Below the pieces are notes generated by a model that had not been told where the DNA came from, did not search any database, and worked only from the letters and a program-made list of their open reading frames with translations. Positions 3 to 19,169 of a stretch of 41,167 bases of DNA are shown one piece after another; the stretch's first letter is position 1, and each line of letters opens with the position of its first letter. The position numbers and the translations under genes are program-made. The DNA lies in NCBI GenBank assembly GCA_030828165.1, contig JAURDA010000013.1:1-41167 (forward strand), written 5' to 3'. Origin of the DNA: Candidatus Poseidonia sp. (GTDB lineage: Archaea; Thermoplasmatota; Poseidoniia; Poseidoniales; Poseidoniaceae).

Positions 3-3000
3 ACCGGCCTTTCCATCGATTCGGTCAACGACGTTGACTTTTTTGAAATCGTCATGGTCGCCGGGGTGACCTATTACGCCAACATCTCCTTCACCCATAC
101 GAACGGGGACATCGATGTTGGATGGGACGATGCCTCCGGTGGTTTCCTCGACAGCGGTACCAGCGTCAGCAACCTTGAGAGTCTGCAAGTGACGGCATCG
201 ACCAACCAAACCACGTATCTCGACGTTTACGGCTTTACGTCGTTCGGACAAACCACGTTTGCCAACACCTATGATATCGAGATCACCACAGACAACCCCG
301 GAGGTGGGCAAACCTTCGAACTCGTGAACGTGAACATCGTGAACTCAACCTTCGCAACGCTCTCGTTTAGTGGACTGACCAACGGGACTTCCTACCAGTA
401 CAATCACTCCTACGGGCAGGAAAACCTTGCAGGAAACCAAACGTGGTCCTCCCCGGTCACGGGAACCTTCACCGCTTCCTCCACGACCCATTCAATCGCT
501 TTCAACATGACACCGAACGTCGGTGAAACCGTCTTGATGGCGACCTCCACCCTCCGTTCAGCCGGTGGTGCCCTTCTTCACACGGACATGGATTCCCTTT
601 ACTTGGAAGCCGTTGAGGCCACGGTCACCTCATCGACTTCAGGAGAAATTGAATTGACCAACCTCTCCGCATCAAGCAGTTACACCCTTCATTGGATCAC
701 GTTGGATTACGATGAATGGTTGACCAATTTCACGGTGTCGCAAGACGTCCATGCTGCGATCAACGCTTCCATGATCGATGAAGACACGTGGAACGTGACG
801 AACACCGGCCAAGCCTCCTATCAGGTCAACTGGATCGGTCCAACCACCATGAACGACCATCTCTTCCTTGCGTACATCTACACACCGGGAACCCTGCCGA
901 ACTTGGACACCAACGAGAACCTCACGGGGCTTCACATCGACGAGTTCGTGCCGCAATTGCCCGCCTTGGTGATCGACGGCTATTCGACAAGTTCCACCGC
1001 AAGCACGAACAACGTGCAGGCCAAGGGCGCCGATTTGGTGGTCGGCGACAGCTACCAGTACCAATACCGTTTGACCGATGCTTCGGGAGCCAACCTCGCC
1101 ACCTCGCAGATGACGAGTTTCTCTGCAACGGCACAAAACATGAGCATCTCGACGTGGTCGTACACGACGCCAACGGCATCGGGGACGTACTGCGTCAACA
1201 TCGACCTCTACTCGAACACATCCGTGCAATTGATTGGGGACGATGCTTGCTTCCAACTCACGTTTGACGATGACAACGACGGCGTAGCGAACGAAGCCGA
1301 CCTCTGTCCCAACACGGCCACGGGAGCCGTTGTGGACCAATACGGATGCGCCCTTGCGCAGAAGGACACCGACGGGGACGGTTACAACGACGCCGTGGAT
1401 GATTTCCCAACCGACAGCACCCAATGGTCCGACATGGACAGCGATGGTTACGGCGACAACGCCAGCGGGAACAACCCGGATGCTTTCCCGAGCGACGGTA
1501 CGCAGTGGTCGGATACCGACGGCGATGGCTACGGCGACAACGCCACCGGAAACATGGCCGACGCTTTCCCGATGGACCCCACGCAATGGTCGGATATGGA
1601 CGGCGATGGCTACGGTGACAACGCCAGCGGGAACAATCCCGATGCTTGGCCAGCTGACAGCACCCAATGGGCCGACAGCGATGGCGACGGCTTTGGTGAC
1701 AACCCCACCGGAACCAACGGCGACGCCTTCCCCAACGATGCGTCGCAATGGTCGGACGCCGACGGGGACGGTTACGGCGACAATCCCAACGGCACCACGC
1801 CCGATCATTTCCCGAACGACGCTACGCAATGGGAGGATACGGACGGCGACGGTTACGGCGACAACCCCGACGGCACCAACGCCGATGCCTTCCCCGACGA
1901 CGCCACCCAATGGTCCGATGCGGACGGCGACGGCTACGGGGACAATCAAGCCGGCACCGACCCGGATGCCTTCCCCACCGACTCCACGCAGTGGTCGGAT
2001 TCGGACGGCGATGGGTACGGTGATAACGCCGCAGGTCTCAACGCCGATGCCTTCCCGAACGACGCCACCCAATGGCGCGATGCGGATGGGGATGGCTACG
2101 GGGACAACGCCAACGGAAACAACCCCGACCTTTGCTTGAACACGCCCTCCGGCGAAGCCGTGGATAGCAACGGCTGTTCGGCGTCGCAACTCGACGGCGA
2201 CATGGACGGCGTCAGCGATGCCTTGGATGCCTGTCCCGATACGCCTGCCGGCGAACCGGTGGACAACGTCGGTTGTTCAGGCAGCCAAGAAGACGCCGAT
2301 ATGGACGGTGTCATGGACGGCTTCGACGCCTGTGCCAATACCCCGCTCGGTGCTCAAGTTGATGCAGCCGGTTGTGCGCCAAGTCAACTCGATACCGACG
2401 GCGACAGCATCACCGACGACCGTGACCAATGCCCCACAACGACGGCGGGTTTGCCCGTGAACGGCGTGGGCTGTGCCGCTTCAGAACGGGATACGGACGG
2501 CGACGGTGTCGTTGATTCAACCGATGTTTGCGACGCAACGCCGATGAGCGAAGCGGCCGATGCCGCCGGTTGCTCCCCCTCGCAAAAAGACGGCGACGGT
2601 GACGGCATTTCCGATGACATCGATAACTGCCCCGGAACTGAAAACGGCCTCACCGTTGACATGCTTGGTTGTGCGACCAATCAGCGAGACACCGACAACG
2701 ACATGATTTCGGATGCCGATGATGTTTGCAACGCCACGCCCGCAGGTGAGCAGGTGGACGCTCAAGGATGTGCAGAGTCCCAGAAAGACAGCGACCGAGA
2801 CGACATCAACAACAACCTCGACCTTTGCCCGGACACCCCGGTCACGCTCTCCGTGGACGTTGATGGCTGTGCAGAACAGCAAAAGGACGATGACAAGGAC
2901 GGTGTTTTCAACCATCTTGACGATTGCCCGAACACACCCATGGACGAACTCATTGACCCCATGGGTTGCGCCTTGACACAATTGGATTCGGATAACGACG

Positions 3001-3437
3001 GTGTGAACGACGCTGAGGACGACTTCAGGTTTGACGCCAACGAAACCACCGACACCGACGGTGACGGTGTTGCCGACCGATGGGATGAGTTCCCAGAGGA
3101 TGCTTCCCGTTCACAAGCAGAGGCCGAAAGCTCCGGCAACGGGATGCTCTACCTCATCATCGCCGTGTTGCTTTTGGCCTTGCTGGGCGGCGGTGGCTAC
3201 GTCTTCACTCGAAAACCCGTGACCTCCAACAGTCCGTTTGCCCAGGCCGCTGCGTCCATGGACGCTGCCACGGAGGAATACATGGCTGGCGCAGCAGGAG
3301 GCAAAGAACTCCCTGCCCTTGAAGCGGGTCAACCTCAGCAGTGGGAAGAGAACGGTGTCCACTGGTCACGTGATGCTGAAGGAAACCTCTCGTACTACGA
3401 CGCAGAAAGCGGTGCATGGTTGGCGTATCAGGCATGA
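3..3437 (+). CDS. Giant surface protein with thrombospondin-type-3-like Asp repeats and a membrane anchor (5' partial)
   Basis: The frame is open to the left edge, so the start lies outside the window; 1144 residues are visible. The first ~420 are Thr/Ser/Asn-rich beta-type sequence with many N-glycosylation-like NxS/T sites, typical of an extracellular stalk. A block of 27-residue repeats with the core DGDGYGDN follows, then ten Cys-paired units of the form CPxTPxGxxVDxxGC separated by DxDxDGVxD motifs. These match thrombospondin type 3 / OmpA-linker calcium-binding repeats. A hydrophobic helix at about residues 1046-1070 (GMLYLIIAVLLLALL) precedes a ~75-residue tail ending in an aromatic motif with W, YY and W. 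The likely topology is outside-repeats, one helix, cytoplasmic tail. The role is probably surface adhesion or display; no enzyme motif is visible. Confidence 0.85.
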   Translation, partial: TGLSIDSVNDVDFFEIVMVAGVTYYANISFTHTNGDIDVGWDDASGGFLDSGTSVSNLESLQVTASTNQTTYLDVYGFTSFGQTTFANTYDIEITTDNPGGGQTFELVNVNIVNSTFATLSFSGLTNGTSYQYNHSYGQENLAGNQTWSSPVTGTFTASSTTHSIAFNMTPNVGETVLMATSTLRSAGGALLHTDMDSLYLEAVEATVTSSTSGEIELTNLSASSSYTLHWITLDYDEWLTNFTVSQDVHAAINASMIDEDTWNVTNTGQASYQVNWIGPTTMNDHLFLAYIYTPGTLPNLDTNENLTGLHIDEFVPQLPALVIDGYSTSSTASTNNVQAKGADLVVGDSYQYQYRLTDASGANLATSQMTSFSATAQNMSISTWSYTTPTASGTYCVNIDLYSNTSVQLIGDDACFQLTFDDDNDGVANEADLCPNTATGAVVDQYGCALAQKDTDGDGYNDAVDDFPTDSTQWSDMDSDGYGDNASGNNPDAFPSDGTQWSDTDGDGYGDNATGNMADAFPMDPTQWSDMDGDGYGDNASGNNPDAWPADSTQWADSDGDGFGDNPTGTNGDAFPNDASQWSDADGDGYGDNPNGTTPDHFPNDATQWEDTDGDGYGDNPDGTNADAFPDDATQWSDADGDGYGDNQAGTDPDAFPTDSTQWSDSDGDGYGDNAAGLNADAFPNDATQWRDADGDGYGDNANGNNPDLCLNTPSGEAVDSNGCSASQLDGDMDGVSDALDACPDTPAGEPVDNVGCSGSQEDADMDGVMDGFDACANTPLGAQVDAAGCAPSQLDTDGDSITDDRDQCPTTTAGLPVNGVGCAASERDTDGDGVVDSTDVCDATPMSEAADAAGCSPSQKDGDGDGISDDIDNCPGTENGLTVDMLGCATNQRDTDNDMISDADDVCNATPAGEQVDAQGCAESQKDSDRDDINNNLDLCPDTPVTLSVDVDGCAEQQKDDDKDGVFNHLDDCPNTPMDELIDPMGCALTQLDSDNDGVNDAEDDFRFDANETTDTDGDGVADRWDEFPEDASRSQAEAESSGNGMLYLIIAVLLLALLGGGGYVFTRKPVTSNSPFAQAAASMDAATEEYMAGAAGGKELPALEAGQPQQWEENGVHWSRDAEGNLSYYDAESGAWLAYQA
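1365..2125 (+). repeat. In-frame 81-bp tandem repeat, nine units
   Basis: The codons for DGYGDN recur at exact 81-nt steps: the GG(T/C) codon begins at 1446, 1527, 1608, 1689, 1770, 1851, 1932, 2013 and 2094. Each unit is 27 residues: an Asp-rich calcium loop, then DAFP and a QW(S/A)D segment. A more divergent unit precedes the block at about 1365. Differences are mainly at third codon positions and in the variable residues after GDN, so the block arose by tandem duplication and is under protein-level selection. Confidence 0.9.
2126..3095 (+). repeat. In-frame ~99-bp Cys-paired TSP3-like repeats
   Basis: About nine units of ~33 residues each carry a CPxTP segment, a GC about 14 residues later, an SQ(K/L)D link and a DxDxDGVxD calcium loop. 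A tenth copy of the Cys unit lies upstream at about 1306-1350, before the 27-residue block. The two Cys in each unit probably form a disulphide outside the cell. Units are much more diverged than the 81-bp block, suggesting an older expansion. Confidence 0.85.
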
Positions 3438-5226: not shown

Positions 5227-6105
5227 TCAATCAAACCGCTGAAGTTGCATGACTTCTTCCGTAGAAAGCACCTCTCCAGCCAACAATTTCGCCATCAAGT
5301 CCTGCGTTTCGTCGGTGGCCGCTGGGCGCTGACCGCCACCGGCACTTGCACTGCGCATAGCCCGAAGAATATCTTGGATCGAGTGGAGGCAACGCAGGGA
5401 AACAATGTACATGCTGTGCTCCTTGTCGGCTTCCTTCTTCGAGGTTCGCAATCGGCGATGAGCGGCTTCGGCCTTCTCGCGTTGCTTGTCAACTTCAGCA
5501 TTCCACTCAATCATCAAGTCGTGGGCGCTCTGGGCTGCTTCAGCGGCTTCCTTGACCGCGTTGTGGGCCGTTTCTTGAGCAGCCACAGCGGTCCGGAGTT
5601 CCGTGCTGCCTTCAGCGGCTTCGACGTTCTTTTCTTCGGCCTTCAATCGCTTCAAGTCGGCGCTGAGTTCCTTCATTTTCTTGAAATAGGCAGGTTCAGC
5701 CTTCTTGCCAGAGTGCTTGCCTTCGTTGAATTCTCGCTCCATGCGTTCCATGGTTCGGGTGACGGATTGAACGGTCTTTGGGCGGATGGGGCGGCCTCGC
5801 TTGTCGAGTTCGGGAGCCTTTTCGGGGAAGGTTGACCGGATGGCCTCCTTGGCTGCCTTGACCGCCTGGTTTGCTTCGTCACGTTCTTTTTTCTTCTCGC
5901 GAACCATTTCGTTCATCTGGTCGCGGAGGTCACGCTGCTCGCGGACCTGAACGATGAGTTCGCGAACCTCGTTGTTGAGTTCGTTTCGGGTGGTGGTGAA
6001 TTCTTTGGTTTTCTCGTTCCAATCGTCCCGTTGCTCACGATGCTGCGTTGCTTTTTTGTCAACCATCTTGCGCCGTTCTTCGAGAAGATCTTTGAGTTCT
6101 GCCAT
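5227..6105 (-). CDS. Long coiled-coil protein (COG1340-like), copy A
   Basis: Of 292 residues, almost all up to ~250 are charged heptad-like helix (LKDLLEERRKMVDKKATQHR and similar), followed by a short Gly/Ala linker. The C-terminus, AGEVLSTEEVMQLQRF, resembles the GExLSxEEF motif that I recall from archaeal coiled-coil proteins of COG1340. There is no signal peptide or membrane segment, so it is probably cytosolic. It resembles copies B (7058-7900) and C (13203-14222) in layout, and A and B share the EEF-type end. It lacks their basic tail. Exact function is unknown; scaffold or chromosome-associated roles are only guesses. Confidence 0.75.
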   Translation of the reverse strand: MAELKDLLEERRKMVDKKATQHREQRDDWNEKTKEFTTTRNELNNEVRELIVQVREQRDLRDQMNEMVREKKKERDEANQAVKAAKEAIRSTFPEKAPELDKRGRPIRPKTVQSVTRTMERMEREFNEGKHSGKKAEPAYFKKMKELSADLKRLKAEEKNVEAAEGSTELRTAVAAQETAHNAVKEAAEAAQSAHDLMIEWNAEVDKQREKAEAAHRRLRTSKKEADKEHSMYIVSLRCLHSIQDILRAMRSASAGGGQRPAATDETQDLMAKLLAGEVLSTEEVMQLQRFD

Positions 6106-6200
6106 TCTTCATCTCACCTGGTCTGGGGAGGATTCCCATCCACCCGCATGCAAGGGACCAACCTCCCCCATTTAACCCTTCACGGGCAGAGGTGCGCCCC

Positions 6201-6524
6201 TCAAGCATCCATTTTTCCTTCGTCCTCGCTCAATTTGTCAAGGGCCAAGCGCAGGGCTCCCAAATTGGTCGCTCGCTGGGCTTTCAGAATCAAGACCCCG
6301 ATGCGAAGGGTTCGGAGGAGTACGAATCCCTGCTCTTGAACGAGCGTCACGGTTTGAGCGTCGCTTGCGTTGTGGGCGAGGGAAAGCCAATCTTGGACGG
6401 CTTGGTTCGCTGGTTGTGAGTTGGGGGATTCTTTGCTGTAGATGACAAAACCGTCCTTCTCGACCAACCAAGCGTCCGTGATGCCGCGCTGCGAGACCAC
6501 TCCTTCAAGCAAGCGCTCAATCAT
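6201..6524 (-). CDS. Roadblock/LC7-like small protein
   Basis: A 107-residue protein with an alpha/beta pattern like Roadblock/LC7 (MglB-type) domains: a first helix MIERLLEGVVSQRGI, strands AWLVEKDGFVIYS and GFVLLRTLRIGVLILKA, and a last helix with NLGALRLALDKL. Family members bind small GTPases or form platforms. No GTPase gene lies in the window. The start at 6524 overlaps the preceding GNAT gene by 8 nt; an alternative ATG at 6551 would add nine residues. The assignment rests on fold pattern rather than a hard motif. Confidence 0.55.
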   Translation of the reverse strand: MIERLLEGVVSQRGITDAWLVEKDGFVIYSKESPNSQPANQAVQDWLSLAHNASDAQTVTLVQEQGFVLLRTLRIGVLILKAQRATNLGALRLALDKLSEDEGKMDA

Positions 6525-7038
6525 GAGGAAAACCTGCCCGCTGGGGTGCATAAGTCTTGGGCTCTTCGGGTTGAGGGAGCGGGCCTTGCATCATGTAGCC
6601 CAAACCCGATTGATAGTACCCCTCCAGGCTGGTCTGTATGGCCAACCCTCTCGCTTTGTAGAAACGTTGGGCTCCGTCGTTTTCAGCCTTGACCTCCAAC
6701 TGCACTCTTCGGTAGCCGTTGGCCCAAGCGGCGCGAGTGAACGATTCCCAGGCTTGCGTCCCCCAACCTTGGCCTTGGAGCGTACGGTCAATGACAAACG
6801 CAGCCACGCGAACGATATCATCTTTGAAGGGTGTCGCCCATAGCAGTCCTTGAATTCGGTTCGGGTCGGAGGATGATGGGTCAACCAGGACCAAGTTTCC
6901 TCCCCATGCCGGAATGGGAAGATGACGAACGGAGGACTCGCTGTAACGCTCTCCGGTTTCGCTAAGAAACAACGCCAAAACGCGCTCAACGGCCGTTGGG
7001 CTCAAGTCGAGAGGGGTTGCGCCGTTCACCCACCGCAT
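6517..7038 (-). CDS. GNAT-family N-acetyltransferase
   Basis: This 173-residue protein has the acetyl-CoA binding motif A as VIDRTLQGQGWGTQAWESF (Q/RxxGxG/A type) and motif B around QLEVKAENDGAQRFYKARGL, both standard for GNAT enzymes. The substrate cannot be read from sequence. ATG 7038 follows the stop of the coiled-coil gene B by 19 nt; an upstream in-frame ATG at 7200 lies inside gene B and is unlikely. It is co-directional with, and overlaps, the Roadblock-like gene, so it belongs to the same operon and might modify one of the coiled-coil partners (inference). Confidence 0.85.
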   Translation of the reverse strand: MRWVNGATPLDLSPTAVERVLALFLSETGERYSESSVRHLPIPAWGGNLVLVDPSSSDPNRIQGLLWATPFKDDIVRVAAFVIDRTLQGQGWGTQAWESFTRAAWANGYRRVQLEVKAENDGAQRFYKARGLAIQTSLEGYYQSGLGYMMQGPLPQPEEPKTYAPQRAGFPHD

Positions 7039-7057
7039 CACGTTGAATTCTCCTTGT

Positions 7058-7900
7058 TCAGCCCTGACCGTTCTGCCGACGCCTGCCCCGCATTGGCTCG
7101 GCTCTGCGCATGGAGGATGTTCGCCGCTTCTTGGGAGTGGGTGCCGGTGCTTCCGTGTCCTCGAAATTGGTGAGTCCACCGTGTTCAAGCATCGCAGCAA
7201 ACTCTTCTATAGAAAGTGAATTGCCTGCCGCTAGGCGAAGGGTGAACTCCTCGACCTGTTCGGGGACGGGGAGCGGGTTGGCCCCGGGGATGTCCTTCAG
7301 AAACGCCCGCAAACGGCCTGCTTCCCGACGCAAAGGCCGAGTTTGTTCGCTGTTTTTCGTGAGTCGCTGACTGAATTTCCGGTCCTCTCGATTGATGGCT
7401 TTCACGGTCTCCAAGAGGGATGTTCGAGCCCCGTCCAATTCATGGTGCAGGCCTCGGTGCTCGTCGTACGCCTTCACCATCGCTTGCATCTCAAAAAACC
7501 TCGAAAACATTTCAATTTCCGCTCCAAGGTGGGGCGATTCGGAGGCTGGTGCGGGTGCGGTCAGCCGATGGTAAAACGATTCCATGGCTTGCACCAAACG
7601 GTGGCGGGGGACGGAGAGCCTCGAAGCGAGTTCGTCACGGAGGGAGAGCAGACGGTCAAATTCGTTCTTTTCTTCAATCGCTTGGATCAAATTGGCGTGC
7701 TCTTCGGGATGTTCGATGACCGGGGGGTGCTGAATTTTGTTCACGGCGAATTTGATGACTTCCGAGCGGAGTTTTTTGTCGATGTACATCCTTTGCCGTT
7801 CCTCGTCGAGGCGGTTGACTTCGGCGATGGTTGCTGCATACGTCGCCTCAACCTCTTCCCGCAGTTGTGCTGCGAGGTCCAGGTGAAAACGGTTCGTCAT
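7058..7900 (-). CDS. Long coiled-coil protein (COG1340-like), copy B, with basic tail
   Basis: A 280-residue protein, helical and highly charged through ~200 residues. It then has AAGNSLSIEEFAAMLEHGGL, matching the archaeal COG1340-like C-terminal motif, and an Ala/Pro linker followed by a strongly basic tail with KKRR and MRRAEPMRGRR. The start at 7900 forms a 4-nt ATGA overlap with the upstream gene, implying coupled translation; a longer frame reaching 8062 is open but reads inside that gene. The basic tail suggests nucleic-acid or acidic-protein binding (inference). A very similar tail ends copy C. Confidence 0.75.
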   Translation of the reverse strand: MTNRFHLDLAAQLREEVEATYAATIAEVNRLDEERQRMYIDKKLRSEVIKFAVNKIQHPPVIEHPEEHANLIQAIEEKNEFDRLLSLRDELASRLSVPRHRLVQAMESFYHRLTAPAPASESPHLGAEIEMFSRFFEMQAMVKAYDEHRGLHHELDGARTSLLETVKAINREDRKFSQRLTKNSEQTRPLRREAGRLRAFLKDIPGANPLPVPEQVEEFTLRLAAGNSLSIEEFAAMLEHGGLTNFEDTEAPAPTPKKRRTSSMRRAEPMRGRRRQNGQG

Positions 7901-8295
7901 ACGTCTTCCACCTCGTTCTTCTTTCGGAGTGCATAACTCGATGCCCCTCCCTGTTCGACGCGTTGAGCGTCCTCGAGCAGGTGGCCCCAACTTCCTGCTT
8001 CCATCTCTCTCCAGAAGGCCAAGGCTTCCTCCGTATCCTCTACGGCGTGTCGGACCGACCACAGGCGAGATACGGTTCTGCGACGAAAGGTTTCGTTTTC
8101 ATCAATTTGATTGGACTGGTCTTCATTCGCTTTGCCTTCTTCATCTGCGGCTTTTGCGAGCGAGTAGGCCCTGTCGTTTTCTTCCGAACGACGTTCAAGC
8201 TCTTTTGGAAGGGAAGATGCGAGCGTCTCGCGTCGTCGGACAATCGCCTTCACCAAGGCATCCGGGGTGACGTTCAACAGGTCGTTGGTTTGCAT
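7897..8295 (-). CDS. Unknown helical protein, first gene of the coiled-coil cluster
   Basis: A 132-residue, charged, mostly helical protein (VKAIVRRRETLASSLPKELE, then a Glu/Asp/Asn-rich segment and a Trp-containing helix). I do not recognise the family. ATG 8295 is chosen because the next upstream Met (8388) would share a CATG with the start of the divergent gene at 8387 and add 31 residues of low-complexity sequence. It is translationally coupled to coiled-coil B by ATGA, so the two proteins probably work together. Confidence 0.6.
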   Translation of the reverse strand: MQTNDLLNVTPDALVKAIVRRRETLASSLPKELERRSEENDRAYSLAKAADEEGKANEDQSNQIDENETFRRRTVSRLWSVRHAVEDTEEALAFWREMEAGSWGHLLEDAQRVEQGGASSYALRKKNEVEDV

Positions 8296-8386: not shown

Positions 8387-10924
8387 ATGCGGGACGGAAA
8401 GCGCCGGAAATCGGTGACTTCCTTCCTCGTGCTCGTGCTTTTGCTGATGCCGCTCCCCAGTGCGCAAGCCCAAGGGGGAAACGTGTTGATCGAGACCGCC
8501 TCCGTTGGCTTGGAAAACTATTCCACGCAACTGGGCAGCAGCCTCAATTTTACCTTTGAAGTTCACGAGTTGAGCGGACAAAGCAGCAACGTTTCAGCCG
8601 TGGTCGTGCTTCAGTCCCCCGAGGGTGTGGTCCTTTCCAACTCAACGATGAGCGTACCAACCTTGAGCGGCTTAGAGGAGGCCAACTTGACGGCTACCAT
8701 CAACGGTTTGCCGTTTGGTTTCAGCCGCGTCACGGTGGCGTTAACGGGGGATGTGGGCGAAAACACGTCATCCCATGCAACCTCCTTTACCAGGGTCATT
8801 CAACGCCTGCGCCCTCTGAACGTTTCGTTTGGAGGCAGTTCAAGCGTGTTCGCCGATGCGGTTCATGAGAACGGAACCTTGGTCGGGAACACGACGCTTT
8901 CGGACGGCGACTTCGTCCGATTTGAATTTCCCGTCATCAACCACGGCGACGTGAACTGGAGCGGCCACGTGTCCCTACATCTTGTCAACGAAGGGACGCA
9001 AACCAACCTCACGAATTTCAACGTCTCGGTTAATGCAAGCGATTCCGTTCAAATGGTGTTTTTCCCAAACCTCACGCTGGTTGAAGGAAACCTTTCGTGG
9101 GAACTTAACCTCTCTGGAAATCTGAGTTCGGCAGGAGGCGTTCACGCCCTCTCCGGTTCGTTTTCGGTCGGTCCACCCCCGCTTCCGATGCTTTCAATCG
9201 CGTTTACCTCAAACGTCGAGGATGTCGCCTCCGGTGATGACTTAACCGTCGTTCTCACCGTTTGGAACAACGGCACCGACGATTTCAACGGGCGCATCGT
9301 TTGTTTTGACGACGGCGTCCAACGTCTGAACGAGTCCGTGGAAGTGTTGGTTGGGGAAAACCAAACCACGAATCTGATTCTGACGGCGAAGCCCATGCTT
9401 TTGGAATGCGACGCCGATGGTCAACGTGTTAGCCAAACCTCCGTCCTACCATCTTCACTGCTGATTGACCTTCCCTCAGCGGTGTTTGAGGCTGCAGGTT
9501 CACCTTCTCCCTCGTTTTCAGGAGGACCGTGGCACAACGGTGACCATTTGCACGGCAACATGTTGCTTCGTAACACGGGTGCTCTTGAAGGCAAGGTTCG
9601 TCTTGGTTTCACCATCGATAACATTGCTTATTCCGGGAATTGGGTCAACCTTGCTGAGGGTGCTGCTGGCGAGGTGAGTGCAATGGCACCGTTTCTTGAA
9701 GAGGGCGAGACCGAAGTCCTTTGGTGGTTGGAAAGCGAAGACGGTCTCGTCGAAGGAATCTCATCCGGTGTCGCAAGTTTCTCCATCGCTCCCAAACAAT
9801 CCGTAACCCTCACCATCACCGACGTCCAACGAAGCAACGATGGAAGCGTTGAAGCCTTCTTGACCGTTAAACTCGACGAAGGGCGGGCTCGTGAAGTGCT
9901 GCTTCGCACGGGCTACGAAACCGGCGATTCCACGGTATTCCTGCGCGAACAGGTCGTGATGTTGGAGCCGGGGATCTTGAATCAGTCCCTGTCGTTTGGT
10001 GAAATAAACGGCGAACAACTCATCGCTTCCGTTACGGCGGTTGATTGGAGCATCGGCCCGGGCCGGTTAACCGTCACCTCAACGGTACCTTCGGAAATGA
10101 CGGAATTTTGGATGATGTTCGACCCCGTCACCGAGCCCTTGCGGCCCTTGGAAGGCGATCTTGTCACCGTCAAGGTGACGTTCCATCAATCCGGTCCCCA
10201 AAGCGAACAACGCGGTGAACTTTGGCTGGTGGACGCCTACGGTTCGCTCTTGGTGCAAACAACCTCGCCGGCCTGGGGAGGGAGCGGTGAGACTTCGGTT
10301 ACGCTTGATGTGACTTGGCCGAAAGGATCGACCGTTGCTCTTCGCGCCGTTTGGAGCATCGACGGTGAAAGCGTCACTGAGGAGGTGAGTTACATCTCCG
10401 GTCAGAACGTTGTTGAATCCGAGTTCGAGTGGCCGATCGGAGCCATGGCTTGGGGACTTGCTTTGGGTGCAGCGTTGGTGTTGGGCGCCCGTCTACGTTT
10501 CCGGTCTGAGCCCTCCACGAAAATCAAAAAATCGTCTTCTTCATCCTCGCCGACTCCGTCCCCGGCAGCAACAAACGACGAGAAGCGGGAAATATCCTGT
10601 CCCTCCTGTGACCGAAGACTTCGCGTTCCTGTTGCTTACAGCGGTTCAGTGGGTTGTCCTGATTGTTCAACAAAGTTCCCCGTTTCCGCCGAACCAGCGA
10701 CCTCAGAGTCGCCTGAACCATCCAGCGTTGAGGCAGCCTCCGAAGAGGTGGGTGAAGAGGACAAGCCCACGGCGAAGAAGGAGAAAAACGACGGGAAGGT
10801 CGAACTTGGTTGTCCAGATTGCGACCAAACCCTTCGCATTCCAGCATCGTATCGGGGTTCGGTGCGTTGCCCCGCGTGCACAAAAATCTTCAAAGCGGAC
10901 GAGGGCATGAGTTTGATTGAGTAG
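8387..10924 (+). CDS. Secreted beta-domain protein with one membrane helix and two cytoplasmic zinc ribbons
   Basis: An 845-residue protein. Residues 1-28 are a clear signal peptide (basic MRDGKRRK, a Leu/Val core, then PSAQAQ). About 650 residues of repeated beta-sandwich-like sequence follow, rich in NxS/T sites and resembling CARDB/Ig-like archaeal surface modules. A helix at ~684-704 is followed by a Ser/Pro linker and two tandem ribbons. These read CPSCDRRLRVPVAYSGSV-CPDC at ~737-760 and CPDCDQTLRIPASYRGSV-CPAC at ~806-830. The ribbons lie on the opposite side of the membrane from the beta domains, so the protein could link outside and inside. It may bind zinc; function unknown. The next gene is a metal-responsive regulator. 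Confidence 0.85.
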   Translation: MRDGKRRKSVTSFLVLVLLLMPLPSAQAQGGNVLIETASVGLENYSTQLGSSLNFTFEVHELSGQSSNVSAVVVLQSPEGVVLSNSTMSVPTLSGLEEANLTATINGLPFGFSRVTVALTGDVGENTSSHATSFTRVIQRLRPLNVSFGGSSSVFADAVHENGTLVGNTTLSDGDFVRFEFPVINHGDVNWSGHVSLHLVNEGTQTNLTNFNVSVNASDSVQMVFFPNLTLVEGNLSWELNLSGNLSSAGGVHALSGSFSVGPPPLPMLSIAFTSNVEDVASGDDLTVVLTVWNNGTDDFNGRIVCFDDGVQRLNESVEVLVGENQTTNLILTAKPMLLECDADGQRVSQTSVLPSSLLIDLPSAVFEAAGSPSPSFSGGPWHNGDHLHGNMLLRNTGALEGKVRLGFTIDNIAYSGNWVNLAEGAAGEVSAMAPFLEEGETEVLWWLESEDGLVEGISSGVASFSIAPKQSVTLTITDVQRSNDGSVEAFLTVKLDEGRAREVLLRTGYETGDSTVFLREQVVMLEPGILNQSLSFGEINGEQLIASVTAVDWSIGPGRLTVTSTVPSEMTEFWMMFDPVTEPLRPLEGDLVTVKVTFHQSGPQSEQRGELWLVDAYGSLLVQTTSPAWGGSGETSVTLDVTWPKGSTVALRAVWSIDGESVTEEVSYISGQNVVESEFEWPIGAMAWGLALGAALVLGARLRFRSEPSTKIKKSSSSSSPTPSPAATNDEKREISCPSCDRRLRVPVAYSGSVGCPDCSTKFPVSAEPATSESPEPSSVEAASEEVGEEDKPTAKKEKNDGKVELGCPDCDQTLRIPASYRGSVRCPACTKIFKADEGMSLIE

Positions 10925-11601: not shown

Positions 11602-11634
11602 ACCCTTTAGGTGGGAGGAAATCATCCCGGCATC

Positions 11635-13161
11635 ATGGCTGAGGATGAACTTGGGGTGGATGAACCCGCACCTGGCGAACAAGCCTCCGGATTTGGTTTC
11701 CGCCTTTCCGAATCCATCGTTCACGCTATCGACCGACAAATTGTCAGTTCGGGCTTGCGGCTCATCATGTTTTTACCGGCGTTTGCAACGCTGACGTATT
11801 TCTCAAGTTGGGCGTTTTCAACAACCTCGCCAGCGTTTTGGCTTGACAACATTGAACCAAATCTCGGCATGGGGTTCTCGACGTTCAGTGCGAGCCTGAC
11901 GTTTGTGGTGGTCCTCGGTTACATCCTCGCCGTTGGGTTTCACCGCTATCGGGTTGGCATCTCTCTCAGCACGTTCCATCGGAAGGTCGAACAGTCGAAC
12001 GATGAGCACCGTTCGGTCCAATCCCTCCAGGGGTATGACGGTTTGCTGTACCAACTCCAAACGTCCATGTCTCACCACACCAAATCCTTGGTGTTCGCCC
12101 TCCTTGCAGCGTTGATGTTGGTCGCCGTACTCTGGTACGGTACGGATTCGGATTACGGTGCTTTGTTCCTCTTAGCATCCGTTTCTTTTCTCGTCCTCTC
12201 GGTTGGCCAGCACCTGCCGACCCGTTCGACCCCGTTCAACATGGTTGAGCAAACAGGACTTCTACCGGCTTACAACCCACCGGTGCACCCCTCCACCCTC
12301 AACATGGTGTTCAACGACCTCATCAAAACGCACATGGATCCGCTCCTGCGTGCTGAATACGATGATTATGTTAAGCACCTCGAAGGCGGTTTCAAACGCA
12401 CCGTGAATCGGCATTTTGCCCATGAAAAGTTCCTGATGACCCTCTACAGGCATGCAACCGGATTGGATCGGAAAACCCTCGAGTCCGAGTTGGGTGAAAT
12501 TTTGAAGAAAGAAGGCATGGATTTCGTTTTCAATCACGAGGTCTTCACGCTCGAAGCATGGCTGGTATTGATCGGAACCATCAGCCAGCGTTGCCCAGCG
12601 TTTTTCCGGATGGTTGATCGGCTCAAGCAAGACATGGAAAGCGGGCGGAATCCGGCCATGAAGGACCTGATTTTCGAAGTTGACATGGAGAACGTCGTCA
12701 CCGAGAAAGCCAATCTGTTCACGTTGTTCCACAACCTTTCCAACGAGACCAAAACCGTGGTGTTTCGTGTTCAAACTCCCAATTTCGAGCCAAAGGATTT
12801 GGCCTTGACGTATCGACTGGAACCGGGCGAGAAGCACTGGTGGTCGAGCGAAGCGCTTCCACTGGCGGCGAAGGGCGACGAAGACGTGTTGGGGAAAATG
12901 TCGGGCTTGCTCAAGGACAGCACGGTGTCATGGCAGACGTTGATACCAATCACCAACGGCGACGCAACCGTTTCCGTCCGCCTTGAGGAGACGAACGGCG
13001 AGCTTCTCCTCGGTCGGCAAATCAACGTTCGCGTTCGATCTGAGTTCCGACAATGGCTTCGAACCACTGGTTCATACGTCGCTTATCTCTTCGGCGGGTT
13101 CGGCGTCTTCCTCGCCTTTGCGTTCCTTCTTTTCGAGGTCTTTGGCGGCTTAGCGGCCTGA
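11635..13161 (+). CDS. Multi-pass membrane protein of unknown function
   Basis: This 508-residue protein has four predicted helices in the first 200 residues (about 42-60, 78-100, 150-168, 174-193). A ~280-residue soluble region follows, with a mixed helical then beta part, and one C-terminal helix (~478-500). I do not recognise a family. ATG 11635 is preceded by GGGAGGA at 11613-11619; a GTG at 11611 is in frame but would overlap that element. The gene follows the DtxR regulator closely. The position suggests, but does not show, a metal-related or envelope role. Confidence 0.75.
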   Translation: MAEDELGVDEPAPGEQASGFGFRLSESIVHAIDRQIVSSGLRLIMFLPAFATLTYFSSWAFSTTSPAFWLDNIEPNLGMGFSTFSASLTFVVVLGYILAVGFHRYRVGISLSTFHRKVEQSNDEHRSVQSLQGYDGLLYQLQTSMSHHTKSLVFALLAALMLVAVLWYGTDSDYGALFLLASVSFLVLSVGQHLPTRSTPFNMVEQTGLLPAYNPPVHPSTLNMVFNDLIKTHMDPLLRAEYDDYVKHLEGGFKRTVNRHFAHEKFLMTLYRHATGLDRKTLESELGEILKKEGMDFVFNHEVFTLEAWLVLIGTISQRCPAFFRMVDRLKQDMESGRNPAMKDLIFEVDMENVVTEKANLFTLFHNLSNETKTVVFRVQTPNFEPKDLALTYRLEPGEKHWWSSEALPLAAKGDEDVLGKMSGLLKDSTVSWQTLIPITNGDATVSVRLEETNGELLLGRQINVRVRSEFRQWLRTTGSYVAYLFGGFGVFLAFAFLLFEVFGGLAA

Positions 13162-13202: not shown

Positions 13203-14222
13203 GTGGTGGACACGAACATGCGCCGATTCCCCAACGACGGTGAGAAGAACCCCGACGCGGACCAACTTGAAGAGCTCCGTTCCATGGAAGCCAGAGTTCG
13301 AAAAATGCGCGATAACCGCAATTCGCTCCGAGAACAAGGAAAGGCGCTCGCCAAGAAGCGCGATGCCGTTCAAGAACAGTACCGAGAGCATCGGGAGAAA
13401 CTTCAGGAGATGAAGGCCGAACTTGACGCTATCCAAGCAGAACGCAACATGTTTCGTGCGAAGCGCGACGCCATCAACGCTCAACTCAAGGATTTATTTT
13501 CGCAAGCAAAAGGCCGACGGGGCGAGCACGGCGAGCGGAAATCGGCAACCGCAGAATACTCTCACCTCATGAGCCAAATCAACAACCTTGAGGAGCAATT
13601 TGAGACCACCTCCTCAAGCACGAAGAAAGAAAAGGAAACCATGGAGCGAATCAAGCGGATGAAGAACCGTGTTCGGGAATTGGAGCCCGAAGTTGAGAAA
13701 TTCGAAATGGTCGCCGTCGATCTCTCCAACATCGACGAGGCCATCAACACGCTCAAGGCTGAATCTGACGACGCCCACAACAGCTTTGTTGACGCTCTCA
13801 AGCGTGCCGATGAGAAGTGGAACGAGTTCAAGGAACAACTCAACCACCGTGATTTTCTCAAGGCAGAAGGCGACCGGCATCACTCCGAATCCGTTGAATT
13901 CCACGAGAAAGCCAACGCCGTCCATGAAAAAATCGACCAATTGATGGTGGATGTCAACAAAGCCCGAGAGCAGTTGAACATGGCGAAAGAGGAACGCAAA
14001 TCTTGGCTGACCGACCACAACAAGGCGGTCAAGGCCGAAATGAAATCCGGTGCCGAATCCGATGAAGTCGCCGATATGCTGGTGAATTCTCTCCTGAACA
14101 ACGGTGAACTCGTTTTCGGTGGCGTCGGTCGAGATGATGCATCCAACAGCCCGACGGCTCGAAAGGGCGGTTCTTCCAAGAAGAAGAACATGCGCCGTAT
14201 GGGACCGATTCGTCGCAAATGA
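13203..14222 (+). CDS. Long coiled-coil protein (COG1340-like), copy C, with basic tail
   Basis: A 339-residue protein, helical and charged nearly throughout, with long heptad stretches (DQLEELRSMEARVRKMRDNR, KKEKETMERIKRMKNRVREL). It ends in a Ser/Lys linker and the basic tail KKKNMRRMGPIRRK, which parallels MRRAEPMRGRR at the end of copy B. The start is GTG 13203 or ATG 13218; the long frame is shown. It lies 9 nt before a sugar-phosphate nucleotidyltransferase on the same strand. The related cluster (copies A and B) lies 5 kb away on the other strand. Confidence 0.75.
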   Translation: MVDTNMRRFPNDGEKNPDADQLEELRSMEARVRKMRDNRNSLREQGKALAKKRDAVQEQYREHREKLQEMKAELDAIQAERNMFRAKRDAINAQLKDLFSQAKGRRGEHGERKSATAEYSHLMSQINNLEEQFETTSSSTKKEKETMERIKRMKNRVRELEPEVEKFEMVAVDLSNIDEAINTLKAESDDAHNSFVDALKRADEKWNEFKEQLNHRDFLKAEGDRHHSESVEFHEKANAVHEKIDQLMVDVNKAREQLNMAKEERKSWLTDHNKAVKAEMKSGAESDEVADMLVNSLLNNGELVFGGVGRDDASNSPTARKGGSSKKKNMRRMGPIRRK

Positions 14223-17003: not shown

Positions 17004-19169
17004 TCAGAGGTTGCGTCGAGAACGCGCAGCCAATGCGGCTCCCAGACCAACGAACAACAGGAGGGTGGTCCAAAAGGTGAGGCTGGTCGCAAGACGTTCT
17101 CCGTTACCCTCGGTGGTTGTTTCGATGCTCGTGTTTTCATTCTCCGTGTTGTTGGTCTCGAGGTTGGTCTCCTCCGTCCCGTGGGGCGTATCGTCGCAAG
17201 CGTTGGGGGTGCCGTCTTGGTCATCATCGACGGTGTCGTCCTCATCGGGGCACGTATCGTTCTCATCGGGAACCCCGTCGTTGTCGCTATCGATGCGGTC
17301 ATCGCATCCATCGGGGACACCATCGTTGTCAACGTCGACCTTGTCGTCTTCCCCGTTGCATTGGTCCCGGTCGTCTTCAACGCCGTCGTTATCGCTGTCA
17401 ACCAATTCATCGCACGGCTCAGGAACGCCGTCAGCGTCGGCGTCAACCGTGTCGTCGTGCCCTTGGCAAGCATCTTCCTCGTCGGAGACGCCGTCGTTGT
17501 CGCTGTCAACAAAGGGATCACAGGCATCCGGAAGGTCGTCCTGATCAACATCAACGGTATCGTCGCCCAACGGGCATCGGTCGTAGGGGTCGCTGACCCC
17601 GTCGACGTCAGTGTCGTCAACGCAACCGTCGCCGTTTCGGTCCCAACCCCAAGCCTCCTCAGCGGGACAAAGGTCCTGCCAGTTTTCCACATACGTCAGA
17701 GGGGTGAGTGTTTGGTTGGCGAGGGCAGGGTCGGTGGGTGAGATATGGTGTGCCTTGAACACAGCGTTGGCGGTTGTGCCCGCACGTTGCCCTGCGGGTA
17801 CAGGTTCGCTTTGGTTATACGAGCCGTCGGGCCCGACGGGATTGATGTAGGTCCAAACAACTTCACCGTTTGAATCAACTTCGAACAGGGTGCCCTTGGT
17901 GCCGTGCGTCACCACCATGTTGCCGTTCGGCAGCATATCAACTCCAGAAATGGAGCCGGAATACATGGCTTCACCGAGATTCCATGACCAGTTGGGTGCG
18001 TTGGGGCCGTAGGTTCCGTTGCTTTGGAGCGTGTAATTTCCGGCTTCGTTGGTTTGGGGGGACAAGATTTCGACCGAAGAATACGATGGATATCGGCCGT
18101 TTCCGTTGTTGAACAAAGAAAGGGAGCCTGCATAGGGGTGACCTTCTGGAATCCAATTGACATCGTGCTGTCCGAAGAGTTGTTGGTCGGAAGAAAGGCC
18201 CTGATGGTAGACTTGGGGATTGCCCCAACGGTAGAGGAGATCGCCGCCTTTCCCTGAATTTCCGCCGGTGCTCCCAGCCGCTTCCTCCGTGGTCGTGCTG
18301 TGGTCGATGATGTAAATCTCGTGCATGCTGCGGCACGAGATGGCGATTTGGTCGAGTACGGGGTTGTAATCAATCCCGTTGCAATGCATCCAGTCGGCGC
18401 GACCAGCAGCGTTTCCCGAGCCGCCGGCATAATTGATGTTGATGCGTTCGGGATGGTCGGCGACCACCCCGTAATTGTCTTTGCTGGGGTCGTAGTCTTG
18501 GATGAGGTGATCCCAAGCATGCCATCTCCAGACGATGTTGGCGCTGTCGTTGCCAACCGGCTCAACCTCGATGATGTGGTCGGGCCAAATGTTGTTTTGG
18601 CCCCCGGGTGAATCGCTTGCAATTTCGGGGTTTCTGCCCGCTTGGAGAGCCTCGGCTTCGGTCCGTTCTTCCCATGCGATCATCAGGATGTTCCCGTTTG
18701 GCATCGGTTCAACATCATGGTGAGTGATGAAGTTCTCGGAGGAGTATTCCCATGACCACTCAAGCTCGCCGTCCCACGAGATTCGTTCGAGTTTGCCCCC
18801 AGTGCCCCCTCCGGAAAAATTCCCGACTGCAGAGGCGGCGATGTTGGCCGTTCTCAGCAAATCACCGTCGGGGAGCAAATACGCCGAGAGGGCAGGGCGG
18901 TGTTCTCCTGGCGAGGCCCAAGTATGCACGAGGCGACCTTCGTGGTCGATGAGGTAGGTCGTGTTCGAGGGAATGGGGGAAAACAGCGTGTATCCTTCAC
19001 TCGCTCCGTCGTTGCAGAACACCACGCCGACCGTCCAGTTGCTTCGGTCAGCGTTGCAGACAGGGGTCGGGTTGACGGGCGGTTCGGTCTGGGCAACTGC
19101 GGGGAGGGAGGCGAAGACAAACAGGAAGACGATGGAAAGGGCAGGGAGCCGCCTTGACCGGCATCTCAT
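17004..19169 (-). CDS. Secreted arylsulfotransferase-like protein with TSP3 repeats and membrane anchor
   Basis: Of 721 residues, 1-26 are a signal peptide (MRCRSRRLPALSIVFLFVFA, then PAVAQ). The next ~470 follow the ASST (arylsulfate sulfotransferase) beta-propeller family. Typical pieces are LIDHEGRLVHTW, HHDVEPMPNGNILM, DWMHCNGIDYNP followed by ISCRSMHEIYIIDH, and QHDVNWIPEGHPYAG. Then come Asp-rich TSP3-like units with DSDNDGV, a Thr/Asn/Glu-rich linker, one helix near the end (FWTTLLLFVGLGAALAA) and RSRRNL. The propeller would face outside. Whether it transfers sulfate or only binds is uncertain. It overlaps the upstream COG1325 gene by ATGA. Confidence 0.85.
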   Translation of the reverse strand: MRCRSRRLPALSIVFLFVFASLPAVAQTEPPVNPTPVCNADRSNWTVGVVFCNDGASEGYTLFSPIPSNTTYLIDHEGRLVHTWASPGEHRPALSAYLLPDGDLLRTANIAASAVGNFSGGGTGGKLERISWDGELEWSWEYSSENFITHHDVEPMPNGNILMIAWEERTEAEALQAGRNPEIASDSPGGQNNIWPDHIIEVEPVGNDSANIVWRWHAWDHLIQDYDPSKDNYGVVADHPERININYAGGSGNAAGRADWMHCNGIDYNPVLDQIAISCRSMHEIYIIDHSTTTEEAAGSTGGNSGKGGDLLYRWGNPQVYHQGLSSDQQLFGQHDVNWIPEGHPYAGSLSLFNNGNGRYPSYSSVEILSPQTNEAGNYTLQSNGTYGPNAPNWSWNLGEAMYSGSISGVDMLPNGNMVVTHGTKGTLFEVDSNGEVVWTYINPVGPDGSYNQSEPVPAGQRAGTTANAVFKAHHISPTDPALANQTLTPLTYVENWQDLCPAEEAWGWDRNGDGCVDDTDVDGVSDPYDRCPLGDDTVDVDQDDLPDACDPFVDSDNDGVSDEEDACQGHDDTVDADADGVPEPCDELVDSDNDGVEDDRDQCNGEDDKVDVDNDGVPDGCDDRIDSDNDGVPDENDTCPDEDDTVDDDQDGTPNACDDTPHGTEETNLETNNTENENTSIETTTEGNGERLATSLTFWTTLLLFVGLGAALAARSRRNL
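17195..17600 (-). repeat. In-frame TSP3-like Asp repeats of the ASST-like protein
   Basis: Alternating units of the form DSDNDGVxDxxDxC and DxVDxDxDGxPxxCD repeat four to five times. Each carries a calcium-loop pattern and one Cys. They resemble, but are not identical in unit length to, the repeats of the protein ending at 3437, so the two surface proteins share a calcium-dependent spacer type. Confidence 0.8.

Follow-up and report, generated by a model that had tools for sequence, protein, structure and literature searches.

The non-canonical poly(A) and poly(U) polymerases and the terminal uridylyltransferases (TUTs), such as URT1, TUT4/TUT7 and Cid1, are treated as eukaryotic enzymes in passages of PMC11646218, and the RNA tails described for archaea in parts of PMC4227792 and PMC7667871 are A-rich and made by the exosome. 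Archaeal exosome tailing likewise yields untemplated 3' tails, but as the reverse reaction of the phosphorolytic exosome and not through a dedicated Cid1-type transferase. No archaeal Cid1/TUT-type enzyme was found in the literature searched, which mostly excludes subscription journals. Here we describe a run of five minus-strand genes from Candidatus Poseidonia sp. (order Poseidoniales; contig JAURDA010000013.1 of assembly GCA_030828165.1), located between positions 8295 and 5227 of the 41,167-nucleotide stretch of DNA analysed, hereafter the window. It encodes two coiled-coil proteins (CC1 and CC2), a GNAT acetyltransferase, a Roadblock/LC7 protein and another coiled-coil protein (CC3). The cluster points to RNA handling and not to a motility or polarity switch, because in most relatives CC2 carries a putative RNA 3'-terminal uridylyltransferase.

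The CC2 frame of most relatives spans about 690–730 amino acids, and the enzyme domain makes up its N-terminal ~370 residues. The CC2 of locus L070, encoded on the closed MG-II chromosome CM001443.1, serves as our reference fusion; its N-terminal part matches PF22600 with 104.9 bits (cut-off 27) and PF03828 with 43.7 bits (cut-off 22.6). The best PDB sequence matches of this domain were TUT7 (E 2.3e-58), TUT4, URT1 (1.5e-44), CutA, Cid1 (4.1e-34) and GLD2. When the model of the 730-amino-acid protein (predicted local distance difference test score, pLDDT, 80.9; predicted template modelling score, pTM, 0.59) was compared by Foldseek, RNA-bound URT1 (7xs4) came first with E 2.6e-22 and a template modelling score of 0.91 by target, followed by TUT7, CutA and Cid1, while the C-terminal part of the model is formed by long helices (396-476, 506-567 and 578-620). 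Palm (PF22600) and PAP_assoc (PF03828) domains with three catalytic aspartates, the features that mark membership of this enzyme family, are all present in the CC2 of relatives, and the aspartate triad is intact in 74 of 76 domains, one of the others being a row with an ambiguous letter and one a dead domain (L039). The motif IEDPF...H is common to URT1 and TUT4 in the alignments, from which the equivalence of the histidine was read, and this histidine is kept in 68 of the 76 domains. In PMC6240794, the use of uridine triphosphate (UTP) is linked to the insertion of a histidine into the base-recognition motif.

The likeness to eukaryotic URT1, TUT4/TUT7 and Cid1 covers the whole catalytic domain, with its PF22600 palm, PF03828 PAP_assoc domain, aspartate triad and IEDPF...H motif; the differences lie in the archaeal host, the C-terminal coiled-coil fusion and the fixed operon, and in the absence of the domain from the window's own species. 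Judged by sequence and predicted structure, the N-terminal domain of the relatives' CC2 is a eukaryote-type terminal uridylyltransferase, of the URT1/TUT7/Cid1 type, with its catalytic residues intact, and the predicted activity of the fusion protein is most likely the transfer of uridine monophosphate to RNA 3' ends. The enzyme family is known; its occurrence in archaea, its architecture and its genetic setting would be new. The exceptional L039 (genus g7, 5345-7363) has a uridylyltransferase domain without any of the three catalytic aspartates, probably a dead enzyme at a pseudoenzyme stage. In the tree described below it groups with two loci lacking the domain.

The CC2 of the window (7900-7058, minus strand, 280 amino acids) corresponds to the coiled-coil part only. 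It starts at the point where the enzyme domain of the relatives stops, and all of it aligns with the C-terminal halves of 30 fusion proteins, whose invariant residues in that half it shares. Searches of its own genome (84% complete) with PF22600, PF03828 and the domain profile gave zero matches. By these alignments and searches, the catalytic domain is absent from the window's species and the coiled-coil tail has been kept. Elsewhere, PF22600 was found in 22 of 97 relatives, every match in the long CC2 frame, and PF03828 in 21 of 194 genomes of the phylum and in none of 14 controls, with 20 of the matching genomes belonging to the window's family (f1) and having the match in the long frame; a PF03828 match in G236, which lies in a frame with stops, was set aside. 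A profile made from the domain itself matched 53 of 389 genomes of the phylum at E 1e-5, 50 of them from f1. Three partial matches outside f1 (E about 1e-6, two with stops) were treated as generic nucleotidyltransferase or chance. The fusion is present in a closed chromosome as well (L070).

The history of the domain was followed on a FastTree phylogeny of 92 loci built from the concatenated CC2 coil (minus the enzyme domain), GNAT, CC3 and purP, leaving aside loci without CC2, those in which CC2 begins right at the end of a contig and shows no enzyme, and L001-L030. The enzyme is present in 70 loci, with the dead L039 scored among them, and missing from 22, a distribution that requires three changes on the tree, which we interpret as a single gain and two losses. 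The window falls among 11 enzyme-less rows inside a clade that is otherwise enzyme-bearing. A lateral gain of the domain from a eukaryote would fit these observations, since the pattern is restricted to one family and the significant PDB matches are exclusively eukaryotic. Two other ideas were considered: a viral source, for which a pattern-limited scan of viral contigs gave zero relatives of the transferase, and anti-phage defence, discarded since the PADLOC matches were only weak coiled-coil or generic cyclase ones.

The arrangement around CC2 is strongly conserved. In a scan of named contigs with the CC3 alignment, covering the best 80 of 170 relatives (Poseidoniales or 'Euryarchaeota' assemblies), CC1-CC2-GNAT-Roadblock-CC3 is uninterrupted in 69 of 80 loci, and each of the remaining 11 has its first matched gene right at the edge of a contig. 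The run reaches the purine biosynthesis gene purP without interruption (six genes) in 67 loci, and the full eight-gene arrangement, which includes a divergently oriented 845-amino-acid gene and a further coiled-coil gene (CC4), is found in 55. The divergent gene adjoins CC1 in 67 of the 80, with CC1 at a contig edge in two more and contig-cut in 11. Searches with CC2 gave matches in 78 of 97 relatives, and the other genes of the run surround it in the fetched loci. Twenty regions from these 97 relatives (L031-L050) were picked by hand and are not a random sample; 12 have the complete five-gene run, including two of a second family, f2 (L042 and L046). GNAT is missing beside the coils in L033 (genus g5) and in L047, which is also without CC3 behind Roadblock, and the regions L040 and L048 are cut off by the edge of their contigs. 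With the same genes in the same order in 69 of 80 loci, and the other 11 cut by contig ends, the five-gene run is not a product of chance. It could still be argued that these are unrelated housekeeping genes, kept together only through compact genome structure, as purP is plainly metabolic and GNAT is missing beside the coils in L033 and in some f2 regions. However, gene order is kept across two families though Roadblock identity falls to about 20%, and the lengths of CC1 and CC2 change together (see below), and we give this explanation a low probability. Most likely the run encodes a single scaffold, inherited vertically within the order Poseidoniales.

At the level of the genes, all five have an ATG start, a TGA stop and zero internal stops. 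CC1 (8295-7897, 132 amino acids) overlaps CC2 by 4 nucleotides (ATGA); a gap of 19 nucleotides with an AAGGAG motif separates CC2 from GNAT (7038-6517, 173 amino acids), for which an alternative GTG start 3 bases upstream is possible; GNAT overlaps the Roadblock gene (6524-6201, 107 amino acids) by 8 nucleotides, and 95 nucleotides lie between the latter and CC3 (6105-5227, 292 amino acids). After CC3, purP continues the run behind a gap of 60 nucleotides. The first-pass annotation of this DNA had placed the five genes on the minus strand within 5227-8295 and correctly given both overlaps, although its description of the run as tightly packed suits the two overlapping junctions better than the 19- and 95-nucleotide gaps. 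Its proposal of a single undescribed module with a Roadblock-like protein, for which it named synteny across Poseidoniales as a test, is borne out by the gene order just described (kept in 69 of 80 loci, contig-cut in 11) and by the fold results below. Among the individual products, GNAT matches Acetyltransf_1 with 41.2 bits (cut-off 20.7) and belongs to the general GNAT family in Pfam, while the RimI equivalog gave 38.5 bits against a cut-off of 86.4. CC3 matches DUF7121 (PF23435) with 51.4 bits (cut-off 29), and the CC1 and CC2 of the window gave, on their own, zero usable Pfam matches.

The 107-amino-acid Roadblock protein scores just below the Pfam cut-off for Robl_LC7 (PF03259; E 1.5e-4, 21.9 bits, cut-off 23), and PDB sequence searches with it, as with CC3, returned nothing significant. 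An AlphaFold2 model built from a 48-sequence alignment (pLDDT 89.9) has the element order H-E-E-H-E-E-E-H, and its top PDB hits in Foldseek (E about 1e-5) are to Ragulator subunits, Asgard Roadblocks and MglB. With VIA-align, it superposes on the Asgard Roadblock homodimer 9jue_A with Z 13.8 over 106 residues. The modelled structure confirms the Roadblock fold, which the first-pass annotation had named as a point on which its proposal could fail. A profile of 14 rows matched 63 of 97 genomes (about 52 of 57 in f1 and 11 of 40 in f2), a few of them outside the operon, compared to 32 of 97 with a single-sequence search and 19 of 97 with the Pfam model; a PF03259 match above the cut-off anywhere in the genome is found in 8 of 97 relatives. 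A second Roadblock-like frame, of 115 amino acids, occurs elsewhere in some relatives (G016:C21, G021:C61, G017:C72 and others). Regarding Roadblock proteins of Poseidoniales, only a review on Asgard archaea surfaced in the literature searched.

Fold and element order are those of MglB, Ragulator p14/MP1 and the Asgard Roadblocks (VIA Z about 11-14), and MglA and MglB co-occur in many genomes according to a passage of PMC4316618, all of which would suit a protein that controls a small Ras-like GTPase involved in polarity or motility. Unlike those systems, the neighbours here are coiled coils and a GNAT, and the Arf (PF00025) and Roc (PF08477) families were each found in 0 of 39 genomes, the own one included; these genomes are mostly incomplete, and PF00071, SRPRB and other GTPase families were outside the search. 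Control genomes were positive for Arf in 12 of 14 and for Roc in 11 of 14. The MglB equivalog NF052242 gave 16.5 bits against a cut-off of 200, a score on which its assignment to MglB was rejected. As no MglA/Arf/Ras-like GTPase was seen in the 39 genomes, within the Arf and Roc families searched, the GTPase and motility frame of the first-pass annotation finds no support, and we hold it to be very improbable.

Turning to the coiled coils, CC1, CC3 and CC4 are shown by their profiles to be DUF7121 paralogues, placed around one locus, with hhalign probabilities of 96.5% (CC1-CC3), 96.8% (CC1-CC4) and 98.2% (CC3-CC4), and reversed-sequence controls below 2%. CC4 (13203-14222, plus strand, 339 amino acids), the third paralogue, lies beyond the divergent gene and, like purP at the end of the run, had been passed over in the first-pass annotation. 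It scores 24.3 bits with PF23435, below the cut-off of 29, and its L070 orthologue 34.0 bits. CC3, the one above the Pfam cut-off, has 35-79% identity to 9 orthologues; CC1 and CC4 are related to DUF7121 by profile comparison, and the CC1 of the window, absent from the Pfam listing for PF23435, is linked only via its longer orthologues and the profiles. Nearly every genome of the phylum has DUF7121 (191 of 194), elsewhere mostly with 1-3 matches per genome in all, whereas here three paralogues surround one locus, one of them cut to 132 amino acids. We take DUF7121 to be equivalent to COG1340. The latter is described in a passage of PMC1322226 as a conserved archaeal group of unknown function, and the name DUF7121 was not found in the open literature searched. 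The coil of CC2 is not demonstrably one of this family, with hhalign values of 6.8%, 1.3% and 59.4% against CC1, CC3 and CC4. Its assignment to DUF7121, suggested by a C-terminal motif seen by eye and by iterative hidden Markov models, found no support in hhalign comparisons run with reversed-sequence controls, and the link given by the iterative models was discounted because their profiles had absorbed neighbouring coils.

The window's CC1 is strongly shortened, as most relatives have about 260 matched residues instead of its 132 amino acids. Its anchor-to-anchor length is 50, against 180 in 60 of 88 loci; what has been deleted is the central part of the rod, with both ends retained, as would be expected if a helical hairpin had lost length at its tip. 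Across both families, the distances between fixed anchors are 180 residues in CC1 and 214-221 in CC2 in 60 of the 88 loci (a set without the contig-cut loci in which CC1 is under 45). In the remaining 28 both proteins are shorter, and in zero loci is just one of them shortened. This joint shortening is a suggestive association and not a significant one, because the 28 short loci stem from 2-3 independent events. A coupling between enzyme loss and CC1 shortening was also considered and is not shown by the data, with enzyme and short CC1 together in 16 of 88 loci and neither in 10.

Long helices such as those of the L070 CC2 model, together with weak coiled-coil matches to SMC and MukB-like models, might also suggest a scaffold for chromosome or cell organisation, in which the hairpin coils would be SMC-like or cytoskeletal spacers and the enzyme a passenger. 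However, ATPase, hinge and kleisin are all absent from the run, SMC-type matches are typical of any coiled coil, and catalytic residues kept in 74 of 76 fusions would be needless for a passenger. Zero positive evidence was obtained for the chromosome-associated or cell-organisation role advanced in the first-pass annotation, the enzyme in the relatives' CC2 points to RNA, and we consider that role unlikely.

The main rival is a role linked to translation. DUF7121 would then be a housekeeping translation or protein-targeting factor, in the form of hairpins associated to the ribosome or the signal recognition particle (SRP), the operon a lineage-specific elaboration, and the enzyme would act on ribosome-bound or ribosomal RNA. 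The near universality of DUF7121, the basic C-terminal tails of CC2 and CC4, and the presence of DUF7121, in 7 of 20 distant loci (L162, L165-L170), near genes from protein clusters represented by SRP54, by a predicted RNA methyltransferase and by adenylosuccinate lyase in the members scanned, are consistent with this role. However, the argument is one of neighbourhood, drawn from 20 Thermoplasmatota loci hand-chosen from the matches listed, and in the window no SRP54 gene was seen next to the cluster. We regard this role as possible but rather doubtful.

Our preferred interpretation, held with a little less than even confidence, is that of a coiled-coil/Roadblock scaffold operon which in most relatives bears an RNA 3'-uridylating enzyme. 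The physical complex, the RNA substrate and the UTP donor are inferred, as are the eukaryotic source, the roles of Roadblock and GNAT and the link to the exosome. The scaffold would consist of helical-hairpin coiled coils, namely the DUF7121 proteins CC1, CC3 and CC4, plus CC2 as another coil; Roadblock would be a small docking platform, presumably a dimer, acting without a Ras-like GTPase, and GNAT the modifying enzyme of the scaffold. At an early stage of the window's family, a eukaryote-type terminal nucleotidyltransferase of the URT1/TUT7/Cid1 kind may have been joined in frame to the N-terminus of CC2, and the CC2 coil would tether it to the DUF7121 hairpins. In most of the family the scaffold would bring RNAs and the fusion would add uridylates to their 3' ends, tails that could mark them for the archaeal exosome (RNase PH/exosome family members are present in 39 of 39 genomes) or protect them. 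The ancestor lineage of the window's species would later have deleted the enzyme domain, shortened CC1 and kept the scaffold alone. In its boldest form, which we advance only tentatively, this would be a dedicated archaeal RNA uridylation, with a eukaryote-derived transferase, captured by a single family of marine archaea and fused to a coil on an older DUF7121/Roadblock scaffold, steering the exosome through the tails it puts on cellular RNAs, and with several lineages, the window's among them, having dropped the enzyme but retained the scaffold.

Several observations weigh against this interpretation. The window's own species and other rows of the tree lack the enzyme, which means that the scaffold has a function without it, and in the second family f2 the coils also occur without enzyme. 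Half of the eight fetched f2 regions (L043, L044, L045 and L049) lack both GNAT and Roadblock beside the coils. Eight of the 76 domains have another residue in place of the motif histidine, and the preference for UTP may vary accordingly. The CC2 coil is not demonstrably related to DUF7121 (hhalign 1.3-59%), a sign test on the joint shortening of CC1 and CC2 is unable to reach significance with 2-3 events, and the phylogeny comes from a FastTree run with long branches flagged. Dozens of assemblies and one closed archaeal chromosome encode an intact Cid1/TUT-type domain, and its operon is the same every time, which makes RNA uridylation in archaea directly testable; the presence and absence of the enzyme across relatives offers a natural gain-and-loss series, and the unexplained DUF7121 family would gain its first enzymatic partner.

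Among the remaining genes, purP (5166-4009, minus strand), which encodes formate-phosphoribosylaminoimidazolecarboxamide ligase, closes the conserved run. It matches PF06973 and PF06849 in Pfam, and NF009780 in NCBIfam with E 9e-93, below the equivalog cut-off, and is probably a metabolic neighbour. The divergent 845-amino-acid protein (8387-10924, plus strand), the constant upstream neighbour, has zinc-ribbon-like segments at its C-terminus, with weak matches below the cut-off, and a hydrophobic N-terminus by eye. Between a DtxR-type regulator and CC4 lies a 516-amino-acid frame (11611-13161) with zero Pfam matches, and a nucleotidyltransferase/hexapeptide gene directly follows CC4 (segment 13203-15296). 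At three of the 20 distant loci (L171, L172 and L180) DUF7121 lies near a gene belonging to a single protein cluster; the member scanned, that of L171, is an NTP_transferase. Finally, the window encodes a large protein with TSP3 repeats (54-3437) and, at 17004-19169, an arylsulfotransferase-like protein that also matches TSP3.

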